NCBI GenBank assembly: GCA_031254105.1
Contig: JAIRVB010000037.1
Coordinates: forward strand, 1 to 46,963
Length of the DNA stretch: 46,963 nucleotides
Direction of reading: 5' to 3'
Source: Chitinispirillales bacterium
GTDB taxonomy: Bacteria; Fibrobacterota; Chitinivibrionia; Chitinivibrionales; Chitinispirillaceae
Made by a program: the position numbers and the translations under genes. A model generated the notes under the pieces. It ran no database searches. It had not been told where the DNA came from and was given only the letters and a program-made list of their open reading frames with translations. Below are positions 1 to 9,739 of the stretch, in pieces (positions within the stretch are counted from its first letter, which is position 1; the number at the start of each line of letters is the position of its first letter).

Positions 1-356
1 TTTTTGCTGGAATTTATGATAGAGGTTAAGAGTTTTATGAGTCCTGTGCAATCTTTAATTATGCTTTTAAATTCTGAATTTGATATATATCCAGTTTCAT
101 GAAGCAATTCTAACCAATACTCTGTTTCGCTGGCTTCTTTTAACGAAATGTTTAATTTAAACACAAAATCAGCCTTACTTTGCCCTCTGATTGCTTCTTT
201 TACATTTGCGCCAATACTCGTACCCGAACGTAAAAGCTGCTTCGACAAAACAAATTCTTTCTTTTCTCCACATAAATATTGATAAAGTTTTACTATACGA
301 ACCGCGAAACTTTTGCTCTTATCAACTACAACATTATCCCGTTTTATAAACTCCAT
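1..356 (-). CDS. Four-helix-bundle protein of the S23/IVP family (3' end off window)
   Basis: The minus-strand reading frame opens at ATG 356 and stays open to the window edge (118 codons), so the C-terminus is missing. The protein starts MEFIKRDNVVVDKSKSFAVR and contains LSKQLLRSGTSIGANVKEA, the hallmark of the 23S-rRNA intervening-sequence (IVP/S23) four-helix-bundle family, followed by the usual KADFVFKLNISLKEASETEYWLELL helix. The family averages about 120 residues, so nearly the whole protein is here. Relatives are encoded in rRNA intervening sequences and include Avd of diversity-generating retroelements; their biochemical role is poorly known. It starts inside the truncated DUF1016 reading frame, with an AT-rich tandem repeat just upstream, which suggests it arrived as an insertion. 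Family call is confident; the insertion scenario is inference. Confidence 0.8.
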   Translation of the reverse strand, partial: MEFIKRDNVVVDKSKSFAVRIVKLYQYLCGEKKEFVLSKQLLRSGTSIGANVKEAIRGQSKADFVFKLNISLKEASETEYWLELLHETGYISNSEFKSIIKDCTGLIKLLTSIINSSK

Positions 357-953
357 CCTAAATAATTATGAATTATGAATTGTGAATTATGAATTACGAA
401 AGCCTCATTTTTATTACGGGAAAGAGCCAACCGCTCATACAAGCTGCTGCCATATTGCCGCTGAAGCTGCTGATAAGTCCAATGCTGCTTTTGCGCCTCT
501 CTCTATCTCGTAAAACTTGCGCTCATTCTCGTTCTTTATACGCATTAAAATCAAATAATGCGACCAGCTGAGATTGAACGGATACAATTGGTCAGACGCC
601 GTATGACGTTTTCTTTTCTTTGAATCGTTTCCCAATTCGTCAGATGGCGTCTGACGAATTAGCGATGAATAAACTTTATAAAATGTTCTGGCGTTTTTTA
701 AATTTGTTTCCGAAAAACCTTTACCAAAACGCTCGTTGAGATACTTAGACAGCTCTTTCAATAAACCACGCCCATATTCAGCGCGCGCCTTGCCGCCCTG
801 CTCCTCTTCAATAATCATGCGGCCAACCTCAAAATAGGTTATGCACATTGTCAAGTCGGCAGTGCGGCTGACGAAACGGCGGGCCTGGTCGATCAGGTGA
901 GCTACGGTTTCGAAGAAGTCGTTTGATTTTTTGCGTTTTATTGGTTTAACCAT
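344..953 (-). pseudogene. DUF1016 (YhcG-type) protein, N-terminal domain, frameshifted and truncated
   Basis: From ATG 953 the protein (SNDFFETVAHLIDQARRFV, then YFEVGRMIIEEEQGG and YGRGLLKELSKYL) matches the helical N-terminal domain of the DUF1016/YhcG PDDEXK-nuclease family, often found beside restriction-modification genes. The frame as read ends at 435 with an unrelated tail after YEIER. Shifting frame at the short AG tract around 494-508 restores family sequence (QKQHWTYQQLQRQYGSSLYE, then RLALSRNKN), so loss of one GA dinucleotide is the likely lesion. Even after correction the gene runs into the tandem repeat and stops at 344, lacking the roughly 150-residue nuclease domain. An AGAGG ribosome site precedes the start. 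It lies downstream of the methyltransferase and nuclease genes on the same strand. Probably non-functional, unless the AG tract is phase-variable. Confidence 0.75.
364..400. repeat. AT-rich tandem 9-10-bp word repeat (AATTATGAAT type)
   Basis: Four near-identical copies of a word like AATTATGAAT follow each other directly between the S23 gene and the broken end of the DUF1016 gene. It coincides with the point where DUF1016 homology stops, so it may mark an insertion boundary. Confidence 0.75.
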
Positions 954-1076
954 TTTCTGTAGTACCTCTTTTCAAAATCGAATAGGTTTTGAAAAGATTG
1001 GCTACTGTGTTGATTGCGTTGGTTTGGAATTGTTGGTGTTTGAATTTCAGTTTCATGTGTAGTCGCTTTCGTTACA

Positions 1077-1985
1077 TTAAGCAAATAACTCAAAAATACT
1101 CTTTGCTACTTCTCCAGTTTCTGCCGCCCAGCGTATCTTTTTCTTTAATCCATCAACAAGTGAAATTTTTTTGTGTAATAAAGCATATATATCTTGACCA
1201 TCAAGCGTAATAAGATTCGTTGCTCTTCCGCGACCGAAAGCCTCAAGACCTTCTTTAGAAAAACCACTGTAGCTTATAATAATCCCTCTTGTCCACGATG
1301 ATTTTCCCATTATCTTTCCATTAAACGTTAACATGTCACTATTACCCAAAGGCTGCTTTTTCCATTTTGCTTCAATCAAATAATACTCACTATCTAATTC
1401 CAAACTTCCATCAATTTGTTCCCCACTCAACCTAAAAGATGGTCTTGGAGTCAATTCAAATTCACAAAACAATTTATTTAAAAATCTTTCAAAAGCAAAT
1501 CCTCTCACATTAGGATCAAGATTTTGTATTAAAAGAAACTCGTTGAGAAGTACATCATAATCAATTTGCTTATTTTTATCATTTTTAGGTTCAATATCTT
1601 TATCTTTTACTAAGCTGTTTAAAAAACTATTATCCCATAATTCAGGAATTTTGAAGCCTAATATAAGTATCAATTCGTTAAGTTTGGCTATCTCATTCTT
1701 CGTCATAGGGTTCTTTTTGGCCTTATAAGTAATTCCCTTATTAACAATAGTTATTATTAACTTGCAGAATTTTCCTCTTTCGAATTCGTATGTACTAGAA
1801 AGTAACGTACTTATAGTAGGCAGTTTGCTACCGCCTATAAAAAATTTTAATAATCCAAGTTCATTTGCGACACCTTGAAATGATACCGCTTGGTTTGCAC
1901 GAGGATGTGGCTTGTTAGGTAAAAAATCATATAACAATTCAGCGATATCATTTATGGCTTTTACATGTTTTGGTGTCAGTGACAT
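1077..1985 (-). CDS. Mrr-like PDDEXK restriction endonuclease
   Basis: 302 residues. The N-terminal 150 residues are not recognisable. The C-terminal half (about 160-275) has a PDDEXK nuclease core of the Mrr/restriction-endonuclease-like type: helix RGFAFERFLNKLF, then GEQIDGSLEL with Asp192, then YYLIEAKW with Glu205 and Lys207. It starts at ATG 1985 behind a strong GAGGAG site. The methyltransferase stop codon at 1995-1997 lies just before that site, so the two are almost certainly co-translated. This implies it is the cutting partner of the upstream Mod enzyme, in place of the usual Res helicase-nuclease. Substrate specificity cannot be read from sequence. Confidence 0.8.
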   Translation of the reverse strand: MSLTPKHVKAINDIAELLYDFLPNKPHPRANQAVSFQGVANELGLLKFFIGGSKLPTISTLLSSTYEFERGKFCKLIITIVNKGITYKAKKNPMTKNEIAKLNELILILGFKIPELWDNSFLNSLVKDKDIEPKNDKNKQIDYDVLLNEFLLIQNLDPNVRGFAFERFLNKLFCEFELTPRPSFRLSGEQIDGSLELDSEYYLIEAKWKKQPLGNSDMLTFNGKIMGKSSWTRGIIISYSGFSKEGLEAFGRGRATNLITLDGQDIYALLHKKISLVDGLKKKIRWAAETGEVAKSIFELFA

Positions 1986-1994
1986 ATTCTCTCC

Positions 1995-3902
1995 TCACAA
2001 TGTTTTTATCCCAATACCCTTATCCCTCAAAGTCAACCTCACATTACTCTTCTGCTCCGAATTCTCAAAACAAGCATCCGCAAAAATAATCCGCCCTGGG
2101 GCGTACTTTGCCATAGCTTCCGCATCTTCCGGCGTTACACTTTGAGCCAAACAAACGATAAATTTCATCTCTTCACCAACGCTAACACCATAAACCGTTT
2201 TACCGTTTATATTTATAGGCATAATAGGGGTCGATAATTCCTGACCCAGCTTCAACATAACCTCGTAAACCACATCCATATTGGAACGGTCGGGTTTTAT
2301 AATGTCAAGCATACCGCGGATACGGGCTTCAAGTTCTGCCAGCGCGTTTTCGCCTGTGATGGGTGAATCGTCCCAAAGTTTAAGATTGGATGAATCTAAT
2401 TTGAACACCCGAAAACCTATGTCGAGTGTTTCTGTTGTTAAGGGGTTGTCGGTTTTTATTTTTTCGCCTGCTCTGCGGATACGCTCTTTGCCGATTTCGC
2501 AGATGTTTTTGTATCCGGCTTTGAACGCTTCGGATTTTTCATCACATCGTTCGGGAAGCTGTACCATGATAAAACGACGATTGCCACCGTCTTCGGAATT
2601 GAGTTGCATAACAGCATGAGCAGTTGTAGCAGAACCAGAAAAGAAATCCAACACAATAAAAGGTTCTTTATCCTCTGTTAATGGAGCACCTTGCTCCACA
2701 AACAACTTTACCAAGTCAACAGGTTTTGGAAAATCAAAATATTCTTGTTCATCAAACAGCGTTCTCAATTCACGGGTAGCTTGAGTATTAAATACTGTAT
2801 CCAAAACCGTGCTGAAACCAGCAAATTCACCCGTTAAGTCTTTAACATATTTTTTACGTCGTGGGCGTCCCGTTACTTCTTTTGGAAAAATAACCTCACC
2901 TTTTTCTATTAACTCCTGCATACGAGATTTTTCATACCGCCAACCAGTTGGAGAACATTTATACGTTATACCTGTTACAGGATTAGTTAAATCGTAATGA
3001 AGATTTGGCCGCTGAGAAGCCGTAGCCAACCCCGTCATATCCGCACTCATCCAATCGCCTTTGGGATCATTATCTGGGTTAGAATACTTACTCATATCCG
3101 GAGACTTACCTCTAATTCGCCCACCATGTTTTGAATAACATAATAAATACTCATGATCTTCAGATACGCCCGTTTTTGAGCGACTATCAACCATCTGCCT
3201 GCGTTTCCAGATAAAAGTTCCTAAATGGTTCTCTTCGCCAAATACTTCATCACATATTTTCCGAAGATTGATAGCTTCATTATCATCAATACTAATAAAA
3301 ATCACCCCATCATCCCTAAGTAAATTCGCCGCTAATCTAAGCCTCGGATACATCATATTCAGCCAATTCGTATGAAACCGCCCCATGCTTTCAGGGTTAC
3401 TTTTTGTTGTCTGCTGTGTAATCTCCCGATACCGCGCCAGCGGGTCTGCGAAATCGTCTTCATACACAAAGTCGTTTCCGGTGTTATACGGCGGGTCAAT
3501 ATATATCATCTTGACTTTACGGTAATATGCGGTTTGCAGAAGTTTCAACACTTCAAGGTTATCGCCCTCAATATAAATATTTTGGGTGCTATCCCAATTT
3601 ACACTTTCCTCTACACACGGGCGTAAAGCCGCCGCGCTCCGTTTTCCGGCAAGCTGTAAACATTCCTGTTTGCCTTTCCACCGGAACTCATATTTTTCGC
3701 GGTTGTTTTCGTCAACCGTTTCAAACTGGCCGCATACAGCTAACAGTTTTGTCACATCTAATTTGCCGTCAACAAAACACTGGGGAAATATCAAACGGAG
3801 CTTATCCTGTTCGGCAAGTTCGATATCCATTGACAGGCCATCTATTTTTTCATGCATTGCCACGTTCTCCGAAATTTCAATTTGAAGCGGTTGATTACTC
3901 AA
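1995..3902 (-). CDS. mod: Type III-like site-specific DNA (adenine-N6/cytosine-N4) methyltransferase, Mod
   Basis: 635 residues. A beta-class amino-methyltransferase: catalytic motif IV DPPYNTG at 136-142 precedes the target-recognition region, and the SAM-binding motif I (LDFFSGSATTAHA) is at 418-430. Supporting motifs are IEGDNLEVLKLL and GVIFISIDDNE. The arrangement and N-terminus match Mod subunits of Type III restriction systems. The listed start is TTG; an in-frame ATG at 3857 sits 9 nt after a GGAG and is an equally good or better start, giving 620 residues. A normal Type III locus continues with a roughly 900-residue Res subunit; here a 302-residue PDDEXK nuclease follows 9 nt later. 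The protein should methylate a short asymmetric site, with specificity in residues 230-400. Confidence 0.9.
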   Translation of the reverse strand: MSNQPLQIEISENVAMHEKIDGLSMDIELAEQDKLRLIFPQCFVDGKLDVTKLLAVCGQFETVDENNREKYEFRWKGKQECLQLAGKRSAAALRPCVEESVNWDSTQNIYIEGDNLEVLKLLQTAYYRKVKMIYIDPPYNTGNDFVYEDDFADPLARYREITQQTTKSNPESMGRFHTNWLNMMYPRLRLAANLLRDDGVIFISIDDNEAINLRKICDEVFGEENHLGTFIWKRRQMVDSRSKTGVSEDHEYLLCYSKHGGRIRGKSPDMSKYSNPDNDPKGDWMSADMTGLATASQRPNLHYDLTNPVTGITYKCSPTGWRYEKSRMQELIEKGEVIFPKEVTGRPRRKKYVKDLTGEFAGFSTVLDTVFNTQATRELRTLFDEQEYFDFPKPVDLVKLFVEQGAPLTEDKEPFIVLDFFSGSATTAHAVMQLNSEDGGNRRFIMVQLPERCDEKSEAFKAGYKNICEIGKERIRRAGEKIKTDNPLTTETLDIGFRVFKLDSSNLKLWDDSPITGENALAELEARIRGMLDIIKPDRSNMDVVYEVMLKLGQELSTPIMPININGKTVYGVSVGEEMKFIVCLAQSVTPEDAEAMAKYAPGRIIFADACFENSEQKSNVRLTLRDKGIGIKTL

Positions 3903-4007: not shown

Positions 4008-4086
4008 CATGATGTAGTTCACAGGTACATAGAAGATATGATAAGATCCGCGCTGCGGGCCGGTCAGGTATGGAGATGATAAACAA
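4008..4086 (+). pseudogene. Remnant of tyrosine-recombinase C-terminus (left copy)
   Basis: A short decayed stretch reads VVHRYIEDMIRSA in one frame and then, after a shift, GRSGMEMINN. The second part matches GWSGMEIITNY of the better preserved integrase tail at 6066-6296, and a 16-nt stretch is identical at nucleotide level (4062-4077 versus 6151-6166). It directly abuts the tRNA-Pro fragment, as the other tail sits next to the intact tRNA. The nucleophile Tyr is not preserved. Confidence 0.4.
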
Positions 4087-4128
4087 TCGGAGTGGAGGGA
4101 TTTGAACCCCCGGCCACTTGAACCCCAT
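4087..4128 (-). repeat. 3'-half tRNA-Pro fragment, probable att site (direct repeat of 6326-6367)
   Basis: These 42 bases match the 3' half of the intact tRNA-Pro(GGG) at 6326-6367 with one mismatch, in the same orientation, and stop in the anticodon loop. A direct repeat of a tRNA 3' half is the classic mark left by a tyrosine integrase that uses the tRNA as attB. The 2.2 kb between the copies is therefore a candidate island, and sequence to the left may be an older one. Confidence 0.85.
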
Positions 4129-4200
4129 AGAGTAAACAGGGGGCAAAAATAGCTTAAATGCGCTGTTTTGAGGGTTTTAACGCTAAATCAGAGTCTCAAA

Positions 4201-4240
4201 ATGTAGCTATTTTGTAGCTTGTAGCACTAAATGTAGCACC
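4201..4240. repeat. Four GTAGC direct repeats next to the att fragment (arm-site-like)
   Basis: GTAGC occurs at 4203, 4214, 4221 and 4233, mostly as TGTAGC, within 35 bp just inside the presumed island end. Two similar words (GTGTAGCA and ATGTAGTACC) occur near 6224-6243 at the other end. Closely spaced direct repeats flanking an att core are typical of integrase arm-binding sites; this role is inferred. Confidence 0.45.
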
Positions 4241-4337
4241 GCTTCTGTAAACTATTTCGCTGAGGAGCGTCCACTATTTTCTCTCTACAAACAACAACTT
4301 ATTTGCAAAATTACGGTTTATTTTCCTAAAAAACACA

Positions 4338-4592
4338 TTAGCGCAAATGAACATAACAAAACTTATCGGAAGTTATATCGCAAAAGAAGCGAAAATCTGT
4401 TTCGGCTCCGCTTTCGGTAAGCCAACGCCTTCTCCCCATACGGGCAGTCAAAACGAACCCCTCTTGCTTTAGCGGCGGCAATTCCGTGCGCATCGTTTCA
4501 CGTGTCGAGTTGAAATATTGCATCGTTCTTGCGAAAACCGATACAGTCATGGTAAAATAATCACATCGCAACGCAAAAGGCGGGAGACGCAT
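4338..4592 (-). CDS. Small reading frame of doubtful reality, weakly winged-helix-like
   Basis: An 84-residue frame divergent from the AlbA_2 gene, with starts 5 nt apart. The middle (YFNSTRETMRTELPPLKQEG then FVLTARMGRRRWL) loosely resembles the recognition helix and wing of a winged-helix regulator, and a shorter version could start at the internal ATG 4550. No ribosome site is convincing and there is no recognisable family. It may be a remnant or chance frame. Confidence 0.2.
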   Translation of the reverse strand: MRLPPFALRCDYFTMTVSVFARTMQYFNSTRETMRTELPPLKQEGFVLTARMGRRRWLTESGAETDFRFFCDITSDKFCYVHLR

Positions 4593-4597
4593 GACGC

Positions 4598-6037
4598 ATG
4601 GACAAGAAGAAATTACGTAGTATCCTTGCCGTCGGTGAAACGGTAACGGTCGAGTTCAAACAGTGTTCAAATGGTATATCTCCGAGTACCTATGAATCTG
4701 TATGCTCATTTTTGAACCGTTACGGCGGCGATATTTTTCTTGGCGTTGAAAACAATGGAACGGTCAGCGGGATTCCGGCGAATGCGGCATCGGATATTAT
4801 CAAAAACTTCATCAAGACGATTGGCAACCCTGAAGTCATATTGCCTACTGTCTACCTTGCGCCGGAGATTTTGAAATATGAAGGTAAAACTATCGTACAT
4901 ATCCATGTGCCGCCCAGCTCTGAAGTTCATAGTTATAAGAAAGTAGTCTATGACCGCGCAGACGACGCGGATGTAAAAGTAACTGCCACCGGACAGATCG
5001 CCGCGCTTTATATCCGCAAACAGAATATTTTCACTGAGAAGAAAATCTATCCTTACGCAAAAGATAAGGATTTACGGTTTGACCTTATACCCCGTATCCG
5101 CCAAATGGCAATGAACCGCTATCAAGACCATCCGTGGAAAAACTTGTCAGATTCGGAGCTTTTGCAAAGCGCAGGTTTGATTGGCGAAGACATGGAAACT
5201 GGCAAAAAGGGCTATAACCTTGCGGCAATTATGCTGCTTGGCCGGGATGATGTTATTTTGTCGGTCAATCCGGTATACCGTACAGACGCGCTTTTGCGAA
5301 AAGTAAACATTGACCGTTATGACGACCGGTTGATTGTTGAAACAAACCTTATCGACAGTTATGGATTGCTTATGCAATTCGCCGGGAAACACTTGTTAGA
5401 CAAATTTTACCTTGAGGGTGATGCGCGGGTCAGCCTGCGCAATATAATCGCCAGAGAAATGTTAGTGAATACACTGATACACCGAGAGTTCACAAGTTCA
5501 CATTATGCAAGATTCATTATTGAAAAAGACAGAATGTTTACCGAAAACGCCAATCGTGCCGTCAATAACAGCGTTATCACACCGGATAATTTTGAACCAA
5601 ACCCGAAAAATCCGATTATCGCGGCGTTCTTTCGTAATATCGGTTTGGCTGATGAGCTTGGCTCAGGTGTAAGAAAGCTGTACCGTTATGTTCCGCAATA
5701 TTCCGGCAAAGCGCCGGAACTGATTGACGGTGATATATTTCGGGTAATCGTTCCTTTAGATGATAAATATTCGTATGAAGCGGAAGCAAGCAAAGACTTC
5801 GGTTTAAATTTCGGTATAAACTTCGGTTTAAATTTCGGTATAACTGTAACGCAACAAAAAATCATTGAGTTAATGAGCAGCAACCCACATATAAATATAC
5901 AGGAAATCGCCGATAAAGTAGGTTTAACAAAACGTAGCGTCGAGTATTCTATCCGAACCTTAAAAAAAGCAGGTATCGTTAAACGTGCCGGAGCAAGGAA
6001 AAAGGGCAGTTGGATTGTTTCTATAAATAAATCCTGA
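4598..6037 (+). CDS. AlbA_2 (Schlafen-type) domain, HATPase_c_4 and winged-helix protein
   Basis: 479 residues. The N-terminus (about 10-135) is an AlbA_2/Schlafen AAA_4-type domain: GETVTVEFKQ, then CSFLNRYGGDIFLGVENNG. The middle (about 285-390) has the GHKL-like RecG_C/HATPase_c_4 signature AREMLVNTLIHRE and NPIIAAFFRNIGLADELGSG. A C-terminal winged helix (about 415-475) reads QEIADKVGLTKRSVEYSIRT. Such proteins are widespread, often annotated as putative transcriptional regulators or ATP-dependent helicases, and are frequent on mobile elements and near defence genes; the exact function is not established. Between the ATPase and the winged helix is a four-unit FG(L/I)(N/T) repeat encoded by a 12-nt tandem repeat at 5803-5850. 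It is the only convincing cargo gene between the two tRNA-Pro copies. A GGGAG lies 11 nt before the start. Confidence 0.85.
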   Translation: MDKKKLRSILAVGETVTVEFKQCSNGISPSTYESVCSFLNRYGGDIFLGVENNGTVSGIPANAASDIIKNFIKTIGNPEVILPTVYLAPEILKYEGKTIVHIHVPPSSEVHSYKKVVYDRADDADVKVTATGQIAALYIRKQNIFTEKKIYPYAKDKDLRFDLIPRIRQMAMNRYQDHPWKNLSDSELLQSAGLIGEDMETGKKGYNLAAIMLLGRDDVILSVNPVYRTDALLRKVNIDRYDDRLIVETNLIDSYGLLMQFAGKHLLDKFYLEGDARVSLRNIIAREMLVNTLIHREFTSSHYARFIIEKDRMFTENANRAVNNSVITPDNFEPNPKNPIIAAFFRNIGLADELGSGVRKLYRYVPQYSGKAPELIDGDIFRVIVPLDDKYSYEAEASKDFGLNFGINFGLNFGITVTQQKIIELMSSNPHINIQEIADKVGLTKRSVEYSIRTLKKAGIVKRAGARKKGSWIVSINKS

Positions 6038-6065
6038 CAAATCGCTATACAACCCCACAAAATAA

Positions 6066-6296
6066 AACCAAGTTTTTCCGGTCAGCTACAGCATTGAAAC
6101 AGCCATCTCTCAGGAAATAGAAGACTGGAGAATAGTAAGCGCCACAGGGTGGTCAGGTATGGAGATTATTACGAATTATAACCCCGATAATGCTCACCTT
6201 ATCGACCGTTACGATAGGGAGCGTGTAGCAAAATGTAGTACCGAGGCAAAATTAAGCGATGAATTTGTCAACAGACGAAACCTTGTAACTTGTTAA
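6066..6296 (+). pseudogene. Tyrosine-recombinase C-terminal remnant (right copy, facing tRNA-Pro)
   Basis: A 76-codon frame without a start codon, beginning after TAA 6063. It contains IEDWRIVSATGWSGMEII followed by TNYNP, which fits the terminal integrase block in which a His/Trp follows Gly and the nucleophile Tyr comes about nine residues later. The Arg-His-Arg part upstream is missing. It stops 30 bp before the 3' end of tRNA-Pro and points at it, the normal place for an island integrase. Frame and motif are seen; the identification is by pattern, not database search. Confidence 0.55.
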
Positions 6297-6325
6297 CTTG
6301 TTAATTTAGCAAAGTTTAGAACAAA

Positions 6326-6399
6326 TCGGAGTGGAGGGATTTGAACCCCCGACCACTTGAACCCCATTCAAGTGCCCTACCAGGCTGGGCTACACTCCG
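6326..6399 (-). tRNA. tRNA-Pro (anticodon GGG)
   Basis: On the minus strand the sequence folds as a complete cloverleaf. The acceptor is CGGAGTG/CACTCCG, the D-arm is AGCCCAGCCTGGTAGGGC, and the anticodon arm is CTTGA-ATGGGGT-TCAAG with anticodon GGG. The T-arm is GGGGG-TTCAAAT-CCCTC and the discriminator is A. CCA is not encoded. The 3' half is duplicated at 4087-4128, so this gene is an integration target. Confidence 0.92.
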
Positions 6400-6700
6400 A
6401 GAAGACACATAATATAAATAAGGCAGCGTGGATTGCGCAAGAGCTATCGTTATGCAAACTCCCTCTCCTGTACTTAATACATTGAGAACTTCATCTCCTC
6501 AGGGCAAAACTTGCGTTTTTTATATGTTTTGCCCAAATAACCATTTGGAATTGCAATTGCTTTAACTAACCTTCAGAAGCGCGTTACTGTTAACAAAGCG
6601 TAATAACGGCAATGGCGGATAGTGTTATATCTAAGCCAAAACCGCTGTTGTGCTGAGGTGCGCCTTAATCCCATGTTCTCAACAGAAGAGAGGTAAGGTT
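6400..6700. other. Intergenic region upstream of tRNA-Pro, with a 9-bp hairpin at 6502-6534
   Basis: No gene is seen. A perfect inverted repeat GGGCAAAAC/GTTTTGCCC with a 15-nt T-rich loop lies at 6502-6534. It is not followed by a T run on either strand, so it is not a clear terminator. The promoters of tRNA-Pro (leftward) and of the exported protein (rightward) must lie here, but I cannot place them. Confidence 0.5.
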
Positions 6701-8452: not shown

Positions 8453-9739
8453 ATGAAAACCGCCCTTGTTATCAACCCCTACGTGTGCGACTTCAAGCTC
8501 TATGATGAATGGATGCACCCGCTTGGGCTGTACTTTTTGATCGGCAGACTGCAATCCGCCGGTTTTGACACACGCTATATCAACTGCCTGAGTCCAAAAG
8601 CGGATACGAAAAAATTTGGAACCGGTGAATTTCCATGGATCGAAATTAAAAAGCCTCCGCAGTACAGCTCAATCAGAAGACGTTATAAATTGTATGGAAT
8701 ATGCGCCGAAGAGTTCAGAAACAGTCTTGAACAGTGCGCATCCCCGGATATTATCTGTATAGGCAGCATGATGACATACTGGCTGCCGGGCGTAAGCGAA
8801 ACCATCAGACAGGCGCGGCTTGTTCATCCAAAAGTTCCGGTGGCCATAGGAGGAATAGGGGCGATACTTTTTGGTGATTATATACGCTCCAATCACCCGG
8901 ATGTTTACGTAATTGATAAGGAAACAGATATTGCCGGGGTACGGCTTGGGCCTCGCGTATTTGAACACTTCTTGCGGAATGGGAGTCTGCTTACCGGACT
9001 GAAAGCAGCTGATATTAAGCGCCATGGGCCGGTTTTATGCACTCTTGGGTGTCCGCTTTCCTGTGAATACTGCGCTTCGAAAACGCTTCAGCCCCGTTTT
9101 TCAGTCCGGCCTGTTAAACAAATAGTTGAGGAGATTAAATTTCTGGCGCAGGAACGCGGGATAAACGATTTCGCGTTCTATGATGACGCCCTGCTTGTTG
9201 AACCGCAAAATACGGTTATCCCTCTGGCGCGGGAACTTGGAAGCCTGAAAGATACGCTCAGGTTCCATACACCTAACGGCCTCCACCTAAAATATGTTAA
9301 CAACGAGACTCTTAATTGTCTTAAAGCTTTAAATGTCACTACTTTACGCTTCGGGTACGAGAGCGCGGGGCGGCGCTACCTTCAAGCAACCGGACAAAAA
9401 ATATCAATAAATATTCTGAACGAAAAAGCCGCTCTTTTAAACAACGCGGGACTGGCCAAAACCTCAGCCGCTTACGTAATGGCCGGCTTGCCCGGCCAGA
9501 GTGTCAAAGATGTTTTAGAGGAGATCGATATAGTCGTTTCCGCGGGACTGCGGGTGAAACCGGTATTCGTGTCCCCTATTCCCCAAACTACTACCTTTGA
9601 CTACTATTCACGCATATACCCGCAAATAACTTCTGACCCGCTCTGGCATAACGATACTTTTTTTATAACGAAAATCGCGGGGTGGAGCGAGGAGGCGGCG
9701 GAAACGGTGAAAAGACATTGTACGGATAGAAACAGATAA
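8453..9739 (+). CDS. Radical SAM protein with B12-binding-like N-terminal domain
   Basis: 428 residues. The N-terminal 170 residues form a Rossmann-type domain as in B12-dependent radical SAM enzymes (LVINPYVCD, PLGLYFLIGRLQSAGFDTRY, PDIICIGSMMTYW, VPVAIGGIGAILFGD). The cluster motif is CxxxCxxC (Cys200, Cys204, Cys207), followed by the usual ELP-like radical SAM barrel (GINDFAFYDDALL, TLRFGYESAG, AYVMAGLPGQ). The DxHxxG cobalamin-binding motif is not obvious, so B12 binding is uncertain. Substrate unknown: family members modify lipids, tRNA, peptides or heterocycles. No ribosome site is evident at ATG 8453, and no biosynthetic neighbours give a hint. Confidence 0.85.
   Translation: MKTALVINPYVCDFKLYDEWMHPLGLYFLIGRLQSAGFDTRYINCLSPKADTKKFGTGEFPWIEIKKPPQYSSIRRRYKLYGICAEEFRNSLEQCASPDIICIGSMMTYWLPGVSETIRQARLVHPKVPVAIGGIGAILFGDYIRSNHPDVYVIDKETDIAGVRLGPRVFEHFLRNGSLLTGLKAADIKRHGPVLCTLGCPLSCEYCASKTLQPRFSVRPVKQIVEEIKFLAQERGINDFAFYDDALLVEPQNTVIPLARELGSLKDTLRFHTPNGLHLKYVNNETLNCLKALNVTTLRFGYESAGRRYLQATGQKISINILNEKAALLNNAGLAKTSAAYVMAGLPGQSVKDVLEEIDIVVSAGLRVKPVFVSPIPQTTTFDYYSRIYPQITSDPLWHNDTFFITKIAGWSEEAAETVKRHCTDRNR

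Follow-up and report, generated by a model that had tools for sequence, protein, structure and literature searches.

The closest described systems are CIMEs and a set of islands in Dehalococcoides. CIMEs (cis-mobilizable elements, defined in PMC5704250) carry no genes for integration or transfer, are bounded by attachment sites on both sides and occur in tandem arrays at one target gene. In Dehalococcoides, tandem islands without integrase are located at ssrA (PMC3146451). A literature search for integrase-less, phage-derived islands at tRNA genes, with most subscription papers and preprints outside its scope, returned these two systems and no equivalent of the locus described here. The window, i.e. 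the whole stretch of DNA that was analysed, is one entire contig (C10, 47 kb) of a 3.68-Mb draft genome, and was compared with a set of 168 Fibrobacterota genomes. On balance, we favour the reading that its tRNA-Pro locus holds CIME-like mini-islands without integrase, arranged in tandem, which have kept complete phage-type attachment ends and would be moved in trans by a related integrase.

Layout of the island at tRNA-Pro

Two 44-nt cores (4085-4128 and 6324-6367) bracket an island of 2.2 kb. The relevant features of the window are:

1-3902, minus strand: left neighbouring element or region, visible part, cut by the contig end (far end outside the assembly)
3-356, minus strand: four-helix-bundle protein, left region
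435-953, minus strand: DUF1016_N protein, left region
1077-1985, minus strand: Mrr-like endonuclease, left region
1995-3902, minus strand: type III DNA methyltransferase, left region
4019-4081, plus strand: older, frameshifted relic of an integrase tail from a second island, ending 4 nt short of the displaced core; it also matches the integrase gene at locus L032 of the source genome
4085-4128, minus strand: displaced attachment core, a copy of the tRNA-Pro 3' half (44 nt, 43/44 identical to 6324-6367)
4202-4239, plus strand: putative arm-type repeats of the far side, assigned by position (repeat scan), TGTAGCT at 4202 and 4213, TGTAGCAC at 4220 and 4232 (spacing 12)
4338-4592, minus strand: 84-aa open reading frame (ORF list) without a credible match in the family search; may be no gene
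4598-6037, plus strand: cargo gene, 479 aa, with SLFN_AlbA_2, HATPase_c_4 and winged-helix domains (Pfam, all above curated cut-offs)
6107-6242 (homology; open frame 6066-6293, 76 aa), plus strand: integrase C-terminal tail facing the tRNA, with the catalytic-tyrosine segment GWSGMEIITNYNPDN (DNA homology to L032)
6224-6240, plus strand: putative arm-type repeats of the tRNA side, assigned by position (repeat scan), TGTAGCA at 6224 and TGTAGTA at 6234, within the tail frame
6324-6367, minus strand: attachment core of the tRNA side, the tRNA-Pro 3' half up to the anticodon loop (43/44 identical to 4085-4128)
6325-6400, minus strand: intact tRNA-Pro, anticodon GGG, the target gene (ARAGORN; Rfam RF00005, 63.3 bits)

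An earlier note on this DNA had read the locus as 2.2 kb between tRNA-Pro and a copy of its 3' half, with a single convincing AlbA_2/HATPase/winged-helix gene inside. Both statements hold: the copy measures 44 nt, and the gene at 4598-6037 is intact, is confirmed by Pfam and is the sole convincing gene between the two cores. A check on whether the copy belongs to another complete tRNA or RNA repeat found no full tRNA and no other RNA family overlapping 4085-4128. Cores that stop at the anticodon loop constitute the 'A' class of tRNA attachment sites (PMC4383910). Apart from the integrase tail of ~45 codons, the ORF list and Pfam reveal no recombinase in 4129-6323. A homologue of the cargo (58% identical) is found in a congener (G001), where it is sited outside any tRNA island. 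The genes of the left region form a defence-like cluster, in which the type III methyltransferase is without a visible restriction subunit.

The suggestion that relatives might show an empty tRNA-Pro site was borne out in part: the congener has an unoccupied tRNA, but its left flank lacks synteny with the window, and the congener's neighbour gene on that side is found elsewhere in the source genome. A precise empty site is seen only for an island at tRNA-Met, described below. On the other side of tRNA-Pro, the congener carries ~4.8 kb of extra DNA before a conserved 241-aa gene (L075:5010-9900, compared with 6443-6676 of the window), including glycoside-hydrolase and glycosyltransferase-like genes absent from the window. 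Contig C31 of the same genome has a 48-nt direct repeat (92%; L215:2292-2339 and 3504-3551) around a DUF1016-type gene, and is also the contig on which the AlbA_2 cargo has its closest homologue.

Integrase tails and repeat pairs

Taken alone, the 76-aa frame at 6066-6293 has no match in Pfam (PF00589 included) or in PHROG. The profile match that the earlier note had named as a check is therefore lacking for the tail itself, and its assignment comes from homology to an integrase gene with a PHROG-positive relative: the translation of 6093-6248 shares 67% identity across 52 aa with the L032 gene elsewhere in the source genome. On the DNA level, 6107-6242 aligns with L032:8785-8920 without gaps at ~75% identity, and the boundary is sharp, with no homology to the L032 integrase upstream of 6107. 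The left relic (4019-4081) aligns with 6108-6170 with two 1-nt gaps, at a score that no window in a background set of 1000 and no sequence among 500 shuffles attains. It is frameshifted, lacks the last ~50 codons and breaks off immediately ahead of the displaced core. The integrase end that had been proposed to the left of this core is hence present, but the frame at 4008 from which it was read is not the integrase frame throughout. The 16-nt identity reported left of both cores is exact (GGTCAGGTATGGAGAT at 4062 and 6151). Judged from these alignments, the right tail corresponds to the C-terminal end of a divergent tyrosine integrase, and the left relic is an older, frameshifted and shorter copy from the same integrase family. 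The source genome contains two members of this family and neither is intact, so that the earlier description of the integrase as lost is right for this genome; all four chromosomal members of the family are without an intact integrase.

A third tail is found in genome G010 (locus L036). In the numbering of L032, the homology starts at 8785 (right tail of the window), 8786 (left relic) and 8789 (G010). The three starts (window 6107, window 4019 and L036 ~883 on the minus strand) fall within ~4 nt, just before GIEDWRI, and nothing aligns upstream of this point. L032 is the nearest relative of the right tail (72%), and a phage integrase described below is that of the G010 tail (73%); the cuts therefore look independent. 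A fourth tail, in genome G020, begins ~100 nt earlier than the other three. One possibility is that the coincident start, seen in no more than three tails and at a point within a very conserved block, marks the edge of a functional attachment site.

A new observation is the presence of paired repeats of the form TGTAGC(A)C at both inner island ends (4202-4239 and 6224-6240). Nowhere else in the 47-kb window do copies of TGTAG[CT][AT] lie on one strand within 14 nt of each other. The motif was picked after inspection, and the corresponding shuffle figures (2000 dinucleotide shuffles of the island, none with two or more pairs and 4 with one pair) are descriptive and no proof. An independent test is provided by the exact pair TGTAGCAC-N4-TGTAGCAC, which has 3 occurrences in the 168 genomes, all in elements of the family, namely at the far end of the window island, at the integrase end of the L032 island and in the G010 tail; reversed-pattern controls in the same scan matched 2 unrelated places. 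In viral contigs, with a positive control that passed, the exact pair was found in at least 120 stretches, of which 90 were examined and none had an integrase box or a tRNA nearby; the pattern alone is thus near chance in a collection that large. In G010, the reading frame of the tail ends before the repeats and the pair is still exact, which argues that DNA rather than protein was kept. The tRNA-side pair of the window has a spacing of 10, and the third unit present in the L032 gene is missing; this end of the island may therefore be damaged. By their position, the island repeats are candidate arm-type sites, presumably those of a lambda-like bivalent integrase.

A complete prophage and related islands

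A profile built from the tails and run against viral contigs retrieved two records of one phage that encodes a full-length relative of 383 aa. The protein matches the PHROG integrase family (1.2e-20), whereas its match to Pfam PF00589 is below cut-off. Its LRHHAV box, GW and YDPDN are aligned, and it has the catalytic set R...H-x-x-R...H/W...Y of tyrosine recombinases. Among the viral contigs and the phage and plasmid collections compared, it is the closest full-length integrase: the plasmid collection contains no integrase relative, and the phage collection yielded matches of 26-35% only. An AlphaFold model of this integrase, made from two sequences, reached a pLDDT of 37 and was discarded. 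Going by the IMG record numbers and named relatives, the records probably stem from termite guts.

The 35-kb record of this phage lies between a tRNA-Thr gene and a duplicate of that gene's 3' half (56/56 nt), and hence is an integrated prophage. Genes for a DNA polymerase, a helicase and a primase adjoin the integrase gene; endolysin, tail and HNH genes are located at the opposite end. The word TTGTAGCAC occurs exactly four times in the record, on one strand and in two pairs spaced 12, one pair per end. The integrase-side pair lies within the 3' end of the integrase gene and encodes CSTDCST at the C-terminus of the protein. GC content is 57-61% in the parts of the prophage read, compared with ~45% in the window contig.

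A parallel island of 1.7 kb was found in G020 (JAITUP010000143.1, a Chitinispirillales MAG from a related genus) between tRNA-Met and tilS. It consists of a 79-aa tail from the integrase family of the window tails, HEPN and MNT genes as cargo (MntA-like match at 4.5e-14, below cut-off), a core repeat at tRNA-Met of 50/50 nt, and GTTGGCCT-N4-GTTGGCCT pairs at both ends. In two further genomes (G018 and G021), tRNA-Met directly abuts tilS with no insert, and the G020 island therefore represents an insertion of exactly this unit. The comparison of TTGTTGGCC with TTGTAGCAC, together with their common spacing, suggests a drifted specificity of one arm-binding domain. A GTTGGCCT pair in another genome (G166:C105) is accompanied by neither an integrase nor a tRNA and was taken as chance. 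The cores, end repeats and integrase homology of the window island have a matching layout in the complete prophage and in this 1.7-kb island.

The source genome itself holds a second island of the family, of 1.7 kb, at tRNA-Lys (L032:7200-9079, G000:C45). Its core repeat comprises 91 nt (84/91 identical), and its integrase gene faces tRNA-Lys and contains the LRHH...GW...Y region as well as a frameshift near the N-terminal part. Its far end has no recognisable arm repeats, which fits plain decay. In G010 (contig C34, L036:600-900), a lytic transglycosylase gene has its stop codon only ~20-35 nt away from a group formed by a tRNA 3'-half fragment, the exact arm pair and the integrase tail; these three are apparently the last remains of an island.

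Explanations and comparison with known systems

Both tails of the window belong to one family, and the best reading, already put forward in the earlier note as repeated insertion of related elements, is that of two successive insertions at the 3' end of tRNA-Pro by one integrase family, each now with the integrase end only. In the explanation we favour, the island would consist of two attachment ends of temperate-phage type, each comprised of a core and paired arm-type repeats, and on the tRNA side the arm would be embedded in the integrase gene at its 3' end; everything else, including nearly all of the integrase gene, would have been replaced by one AlbA_2-type cargo gene. A related integrase, for example that of an incoming phage, could bind cores and arms in trans and excise or insert the island. 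The tail may persist since its DNA carries or adjoins arm sites, or belongs to the attachment site, and not for its protein. Insertion of the right island would have pushed the left relic away from the tRNA (accretion). As the source genome harbors no full-length member of the family, the island should be immobile at present without an incoming helper. Several findings speak against this explanation: the left relic is without arms, the C45 far end lacks recognisable ones, the tRNA-side end of the window island may be damaged, the source genome has no intact helper integrase, and the GC content of the prophage is well above that of the window contig.

The main rival for the window island, possible but in our view doubtful, is that of dead prophage remnants, in which insertion at tRNA-Pro was followed by large deletions in place, such that the ends and a useful cargo remain and nothing is mobile. 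Such in-place decay fits the C45 island well; it agrees with the loss of an intact integrase in all four chromosomal family members, with the frameshift in the C45 copy and with a left relic that is frameshifted and armless. It accounts less readily for two independent islands, each with its own repeat word, that retain arm sets and cores at both ends. With its identical core copies, the G020 island can also have had only a short time in which to decay from a full prophage, although one large deletion could suffice. It is very improbable that the tail is retained because it is expressed as a small protein, such as an integrase fragment with a dominant-negative effect: the 76-aa frame is open and includes the catalytic-tyrosine segment, but the left relic is frameshifted, the G010 frame differs and stops early while the DNA repeats are exact, and neither a start codon nor a ribosome site could be identified. 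An SSV-type split, in which integration divides the integrase and the tail is a normal product of insertion, can be set aside: the C-terminal piece does adjoin the core, but the complete prophage has its whole integrase gene on one side with the core downstream of the stop codon instead of inside the gene, and no N-terminal piece is present at the opposite end.

To return to the favoured explanation of ends moved in trans, its extension to a lineage-wide class of reduced tRNA islands, each with just a complete phage-type attachment site and one defence-like gene and hitching on the integrases of temperate phages, seems to us rather unlikely. If it were true, the functional attachment site would have its edge where the three tails, which come from two genera, share their cut point. 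Because island finders require an integrase, they systematically overlook islands of 1-3 kb that have none. Should the islands described here still be recombined by phage integrases, single defence genes would enter tRNA sites with next to no cost in coding sequence, and the feature is more interesting if this mobility is real. Pairs of arm repeats on one strand, spaced 12 nt and close to each core, offer a cheap search handle and could name helper phages.

With respect to known systems, phage satellites (P4-like, PICI and PICMI; PMC10803314) are likewise small, phage-dependent and often equipped with defence genes, but they bring an integrase and additional genes of their own. With 6.1 kb, PICMI115 is called the smallest satellite with characterised activity (PMC10803314). 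The window island has one cargo gene only, without an integrase of its own, an AlpA-like regulator or a primase, and was rejected as a satellite of the described families. MITEs and CALINs (PMC11389934) are similar in being non-autonomous: the enzyme that recognises their ends is provided in trans. Their enzymes are a transposase and the integron integrase, respectively, whereas the window island would involve a tRNA-specific tyrosine integrase with sites of core and arm type, and its cargo codes for a protein. The tRNA islands of Islander (PMC4383910) share with the window the tRNA gene with a 3' fragment in the same orientation and the anticodon-loop crossover class. Islander accepts only islands that measure at least 2 kb and contain an integrase ORF, and the window island has no PF00589 match; islands of this kind are therefore rejected by design.

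The closest agreement is with CIMEs. Of the integration genes only the short integrase tail is left, both attL and attR appear to be kept in the form of the 44-nt cores and the repeat pairs on both sides, and the tandem layout at one target gene is seen. As to origin, the known cases derive from ICEs, IMEs or serine-recombinase islands, whereas here the only full-length relative of the integrase is that of a temperate phage, with none in the plasmid collection. The window and G020 islands differ further in having 1.7-2.2 kb, one cargo module and paired arm repeats documented at both ends. The feature in the window is real and well-supported, and it is distinguished from the known kinds by its phage-type parentage, its extreme reduction and its arm repeats at both ends.
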